Assembly: GCA_028284905.1 (NCBI GenBank)
Contig: JANQQU010000085.1
Coordinates: forward strand, 186,001-250,000
Source of the DNA: Calditrichia bacterium
Lineage (GTDB): Bacteria > Calditrichota > Calditrichia > RBG-13-44-9 > J075
Length of the DNA: 64,000 nucleotides
Direction of reading: 5' to 3'
In this document: in pieces, positions 37,561 through 37,698 of the stretch
Layout: the number at the start of each line of letters is the position of its first letter
Numbering within the stretch: position 1 is the first letter of the stretch
The notes under the pieces: generated by a model
Seen by the model: only the letters and a program-made list of their open reading frames with translations
Database searches by the model: none
Told to the model about the DNA's origin: nothing
Position numbers and translations under genes: made by a program

Positions 37561-37698
37561 TTGAAAAAAACACATCTGCCGGAAAAAATTTGTGCGAATT
37601 GTCAGCGTCCGTTCAAATGGCGAAAAAAATGGTGAAATTGCTGGGAAGCAGTGCGCTACTGTAGCGAAAGATGTCGGCGGAACAAGCACCGTAAATGA
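37561..37698 (+). pseudogene. DUF2256 zinc-ribbon mini-protein with in-frame UGA
   Basis: A 45-codon frame missed by ordinary gene calling because codon 25 is TGA (37633-37635). From a TTG start with AAGGA 8 nt upstream, the first 24 codons read with LPEKICANC and RPFKWRKKW. After the UGA, the same frame gives [15 protein letters not shown] and then NKHRK. This is the full DUF2256 pattern (LPeKiC..C.rPf.WRKKW...W..V.YCS..CR), including both zinc-binding Cys pairs. The codon at the break normally encodes a variable residue such as Ala or Glu. A recent nonsense change or a sequencing error is most likely; recoding is an outside possibility. DUF2256 genes often neighbour DASH cryptochromes, as here. 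Confidence 0.75.

Follow-up and report, generated by a model that had tools for sequence, protein, structure and literature searches.

The only DUF2256 gene found in this genome, a small zinc-ribbon gene that lies beside the light-sensing/DNA-repair gene of a DASH cryptochrome, is interrupted by a single in-frame TGA. Although the genome is equipped to decode UGA as selenocysteine, we consider it probable that this codon is a single nonsense mutation, which would have arisen recently and would have cost the gene its function. As it stands, the case is one of a selenocysteine-decoding genome that still carries an ordinary-looking UGA nonsense codon, and it indicates that both the residue at the homologous position and the SECIS element need to be tested before such genes are named selenoproteins. 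In the following, the window refers to the whole stretch of 64,000 nucleotides that was analyzed.

An otherwise intact DUF2256 gene with one in-frame TGA

Read on the forward strand, the DUF2256 frame contains one TGA and no insertion or deletion (Table 1). In a profile search, the read-through frame matched PF10013, for which the curated cut-off is 25 bits, at 71.8 bits (E-value 5.1e-20) over profile positions 1–40 of 40, far above chance. These results bear out the sequence-only reading, which had described a DUF2256 gene broken by one in-frame UGA without an indel. Like other members of the family, the gene has four cysteines and the WRKKW and YCSERC motifs; unlike them, it is interrupted after W24, so that it has the profile score of a family member but not the uninterrupted frame. 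All conserved family positions are retained apart from this one lesion, and the TGA falls outside the four conserved cysteine positions. A frameshift or a general decay of the gene is ruled out by the single frame and the single lesion. A search of the whole genome with the profile returned only this copy, with its one internal TGA.

Table 1. Features at the DUF2256 locus (positions within the window)
Feature	Position	Strand	Basis
Intact DASH cryptochrome (TIGR02765), divergent neighbor	35970..37412	-	573 bits, model positions 2–431 of 431
Intergenic stretch between the divergent cryptochrome and DUF2256 genes; AAGGAA before the TTG start at 37561	37413..37560	.	By eye
DUF2256 (PF10013) open frame, TTG start, one internal TGA	37561..37698	+	Translation, profile match
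In-frame TGA, flanked by W24 and N26	37633..37635	+	Frame reading, homolog column
Stretch searched for a hairpin of the bacterial SECIS type; one borderline candidate, present in a suboptimal fold only	37636..37680	+	Folding

According to passages of PMC4047054, DUF2256 belongs to the TRASH clan of cysteine-coordinated metal-binding domains. If the TGA acts as a stop, translation would end after 24 residues, with only the first CxxC of the four-cysteine metal-binding pattern; since such a peptide would keep only the first cysteine pair and could not form the four-cysteine site, no working protein would be expected from it, while the cryptochrome next door would be unaffected, its gene being intact. 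Counting against a nonsense mutation, the frame downstream of the TGA is fully conserved, whereas a long-dead gene would differ.

One isolated lesion where the rest of the frame is perfect, in a genome available as an 8.55 Mb draft of 93 contigs, is also what an error of base calling or assembly would produce, in which case the DUF2256 gene of the organism would be intact and its DNA would lack the TGA. We regard this explanation as unlikely, however, as the site itself has no sign of such an error, and the nearby run of seven A residues (37623–37629) would favor indels, of which there are none.

TGA as an ordinary stop codon

Among 40 long, non-overlapping open frames of the window, which are mechanically called frames rather than curated genes, 21 end in TAA, 13 in TGA and six in TAG. 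Because TGA closes 13 of these 40 frames, a genome-wide reassignment of UGA is ruled out, and the earlier exclusion of this possibility, made from the window alone, holds.

Selenocysteine machinery of the genome

The sequence-only reading had seen no selenocysteine machinery in the window and had proposed looking for selA, selB and selC. Its remark on the window was misleading, as all three are present elsewhere in the genome, together with selD. A search of the genome identified selC, encoding a tRNA-Sec with a UCA anticodon (73 bits, C9:97361-97453); SelA (479 bits) and SelB (332.7 bits, or 349.5 bits with a second piece), whose adjacent genes span C46:2271-5474; and SelD (388.6 bits, C21:22816-23739), which is itself encoded with one in-frame TGA. 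The best matches to the machinery thus lie on contigs C9, C46 and C21, while the window lies on C13. Sixteen nucleotides after the selD TGA is a hairpin with a 5-bp stem and the loop CGGGU (-9.5), which fits a bacterial SECIS element. The decoding machinery expected for a bacterial selenoprotein is therefore encoded by this genome, and the organism very likely decodes UGA as selenocysteine. The alpha subunit of formate dehydrogenase (TIGR01591), included as a selenoprotein control, gave 13 matches in the genome, none of which contained a stop and none of which exceeded the cut-off.

Given selC, selA, selB and a selenocysteine-type selD, the UGA of the DUF2256 gene was tested as a selenocysteine codon. 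In such a selenoprotein, SelB and the tRNA-Sec would insert selenocysteine at the UGA, yielding a DUF2256 protein of 45 residues with a UNC motif. The ability of the genome to decode UGA counts against the nonsense mutation, as does the UxC motif that selenocysteine would form here, UxC being counted among known selenoprotein motifs in passages of PMC13188914. We nevertheless consider a DUF2256 selenoprotein very unlikely, for reasons that follow from the RNA downstream of the TGA, from the homologs and from the literature. As for the latter, selenium is unmentioned in the passages that name DUF2256, and no publication joining DUF2256 with selenium terms was found in a search whose coverage excluded preprints and most subscription papers.

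A borderline hairpin downstream of the TGA

The bacterial SECIS model given in passages of PMC13188914 specifies a loop of 3–9 nt with a G in its first two positions, a stem of 4–16 bp, a distance of 16–37 nt from the UGA, and a minimum free energy of -7.5 kcal/mol or lower. We applied this model with a script of our own and not with bSECISearch. The DUF2256 gene has a candidate hairpin 18 nt from the UGA, with 6 bp and the 3-nt loop CGC, in which G occupies position 2. At a total of -7.5 kcal/mol, it lies exactly at the threshold of the model, and its geometry is a further point that may count against the nonsense mutation and in favor of selenocysteine. However, in folds at several lengths the hairpin competed with others and was missing from the most stable fold, and the same test was passed by 51 of 400 TGAs drawn at random from the 2039 in the window. 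The 74-nt stretch that was folded is no better than its shuffles (z -0.65). A more stable hairpin, with 6 bp and the loop GGGA, is only 7 nt from the UGA, which is too near for the model.

The search for a SECIS-like hairpin proposed earlier thus yielded one at the threshold, but one that is absent from the minimum free energy fold. The hairpin is marginal, does not rise above background, and gives the selenocysteine reading no positive support. The DUF2256 gene shares with selD an in-frame TGA and a genome containing selA, selB, selC and selD; unlike selD, which has a clear SECIS element (-9.5), it has a threshold hairpin only, and no cysteine at the corresponding column of its homologs.

The residue at the TGA column in homologs

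We surveyed this column in 119 loci, of which 112 were matched by our search expression, representing 104 distinct sequences; seven loci outside the expression (L115, L128, L148, L154, L155, L164, L165) were not counted. The survey is not a random sample: most of its loci were the top scorers of the individual searches, and the four tryptophan sequences and the TAA sequence entered it because a scan had targeted precisely this codon. Loci of other families and repeat copies (L005-L014, L050-L057, L066-L089, L091-L093, L095) were left out before counting; among these, L091 is the stretch of genome G086 already included as L002, and L092, an intact gene from a congener of G086, has alanine at the column.

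The 104 distinct sequences comprise 39 with alanine, 38 with glutamic acid, 15 with glutamine, four with tryptophan, two each with arginine, lysine and serine, and two with a stop, i.e., the TGA of the window and a TAA in Legionella. Cysteine was found in none of the 102 distinct sense homologs; according to passages of PMC13188914, cysteine homologs exist for nearly all selenoproteins.

Since the column varies and holds tryptophan in four gammaproteobacterial homologs, low-level readthrough by a near-cognate tRNA might insert tryptophan or another residue at a position tolerant of change and so provide enough full-length protein. We rate this as highly improbable: no stimulating element has been shown, and TGA terminates the 13 long frames of the window counted above.

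A scan for the codon itself was carried out in genome_contigs, in which 84,980 species are represented by a single genome each, using a pattern consisting of a KKW-like stretch, then TGG, TGA, TAA or TAG, then the remaining motif. The pattern requires conserved letters, so that divergent homologs would escape it, and the scan may omit the genome of the window and those of its nearest relatives. It returned five matches, four with TGG and one with TAA (a Legionella metagenome-assembled genome), and therefore no TGA; the same pattern had no match in viral_contigs. Conservation of the UGA in related species, as expected of a selenoprotein, was not observed either, with no TGA in the scan and no DUF2256 elsewhere in the phylum genomes searched. 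On the scan and the column survey together, we reject a conserved recoding of the UGA.

The sequence-only reading had listed a recent change, an error and recoding as possible explanations and had suggested a comparison with relatives at the codon. The list was fair, but recoding is disfavored because the column, dominated by A, E and Q, lacks cysteine, because no homolog with TGA emerged from the wide scan, and because the SECIS element is marginal at best, which leaves a nonsense mutation or a base error. A lineage-specific variant of recoding can be imagined: selenocysteine, as part of a UNC motif before the second zinc knuckle, would replace a non-cysteine residue and couple a photolyase-linked zinc ribbon to redox chemistry; to this we give even less credence than to a selenoprotein in general. 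A true selenoprotein at this locus would constitute a new selenoprotein family, with selenocysteine gained at a non-cysteine column.

Premature stops in other DUF2256 genes

A nonsense mutation in a DUF2256 gene is not without parallel. In 291 genomes of the phylum of G086, which we take to be the cyanobacteria, two of 133 DUF2256 matches contain an internal stop, a TAA in G086 and a TAG in G271, while none was found among 53 matches (from 51 of 369 genomes) in the class of G392; DUF2256 genes with a single stop thus occur at a low rate. In G086 (L002 / L091), a single-contig genome, the TAA lies between the start and the CxxC, and the intact DUF2256 gene of its congener (L092) has glutamine at that position. 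In G271, the TAG lies in the last cysteine pair and is accompanied by further changes in conserved residues.

The closest match in position comes from the Legionella genome (JAFKHV010000031.1; L098 / L049, L096), where a single contig carries an intact DUF2256 gene and, at a distance of about 25 kb, a second copy whose TAA occupies the codon that is TGA in the window. All three of these genes resemble ours in having a single stop in a recognizable frame, but their stops are TAA (Legionella and G086) and TAG (G271) rather than TGA. Furthermore, the broken copy in Legionella is accompanied by an intact second one, whereas our genome has a single copy.

The cryptochrome neighbor and the origin of the gene

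The claim that the DUF2256 gene stands beside a DASH cryptochrome was corroborated by the full-length TIGR02765 match (Table 1). Of 40 genomes searched in the window's phylum, DUF2256 was detected in one, our own, and in none of the remaining 39; the lineage therefore manages without it. Matches to the cryptochrome at E-values up to 1e-20 are found in 10 of these 39 genomes, but none is close, the best having 149 bits and 32% identity against a self-score of 1132 bits. Given the absence of DUF2256 from the other 39 genomes, a gain together with the cryptochrome and a later loss are plausible, and the distribution of the two genes suggests that they were probably acquired jointly by horizontal transfer. 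The DUF2256 gene would then have been hit by one recent nonsense change. The genome also contains two more photolyase-like matches (G000:C32:7073-7543 and G000:C39:149399-150184).

A photolyase or cryptochrome gene was found near DUF2256 in 18 of 30 gammaproteobacterial loci (L099-L128; flanks of about 1.5 kb), in four of eight plasmid loci (flanks of 2.5 kb), and, as a photolyase-like gene, in two of 37 loci on viral contigs (flanks up to 2 kb), while none was found in 30 loci of the phylum of G086 (flanks of about 1.5 kb). Thus, the link between DUF2256 and photolyases is present in some groups, and the window contains a DASH version of it. The adjoining cryptochrome gene is a feature that the window has in common with the 18 gammaproteobacterial loci; in these, however, the neighbor is best matched by an Acinetobacter 'cryptochrome/photolyase family protein' in 16 cases and by the DASH type, as in the window, in only two. 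Among the 37 viral loci, which are from IMG/VR (L129-L165), many have KC instead of YC in the second knuckle.
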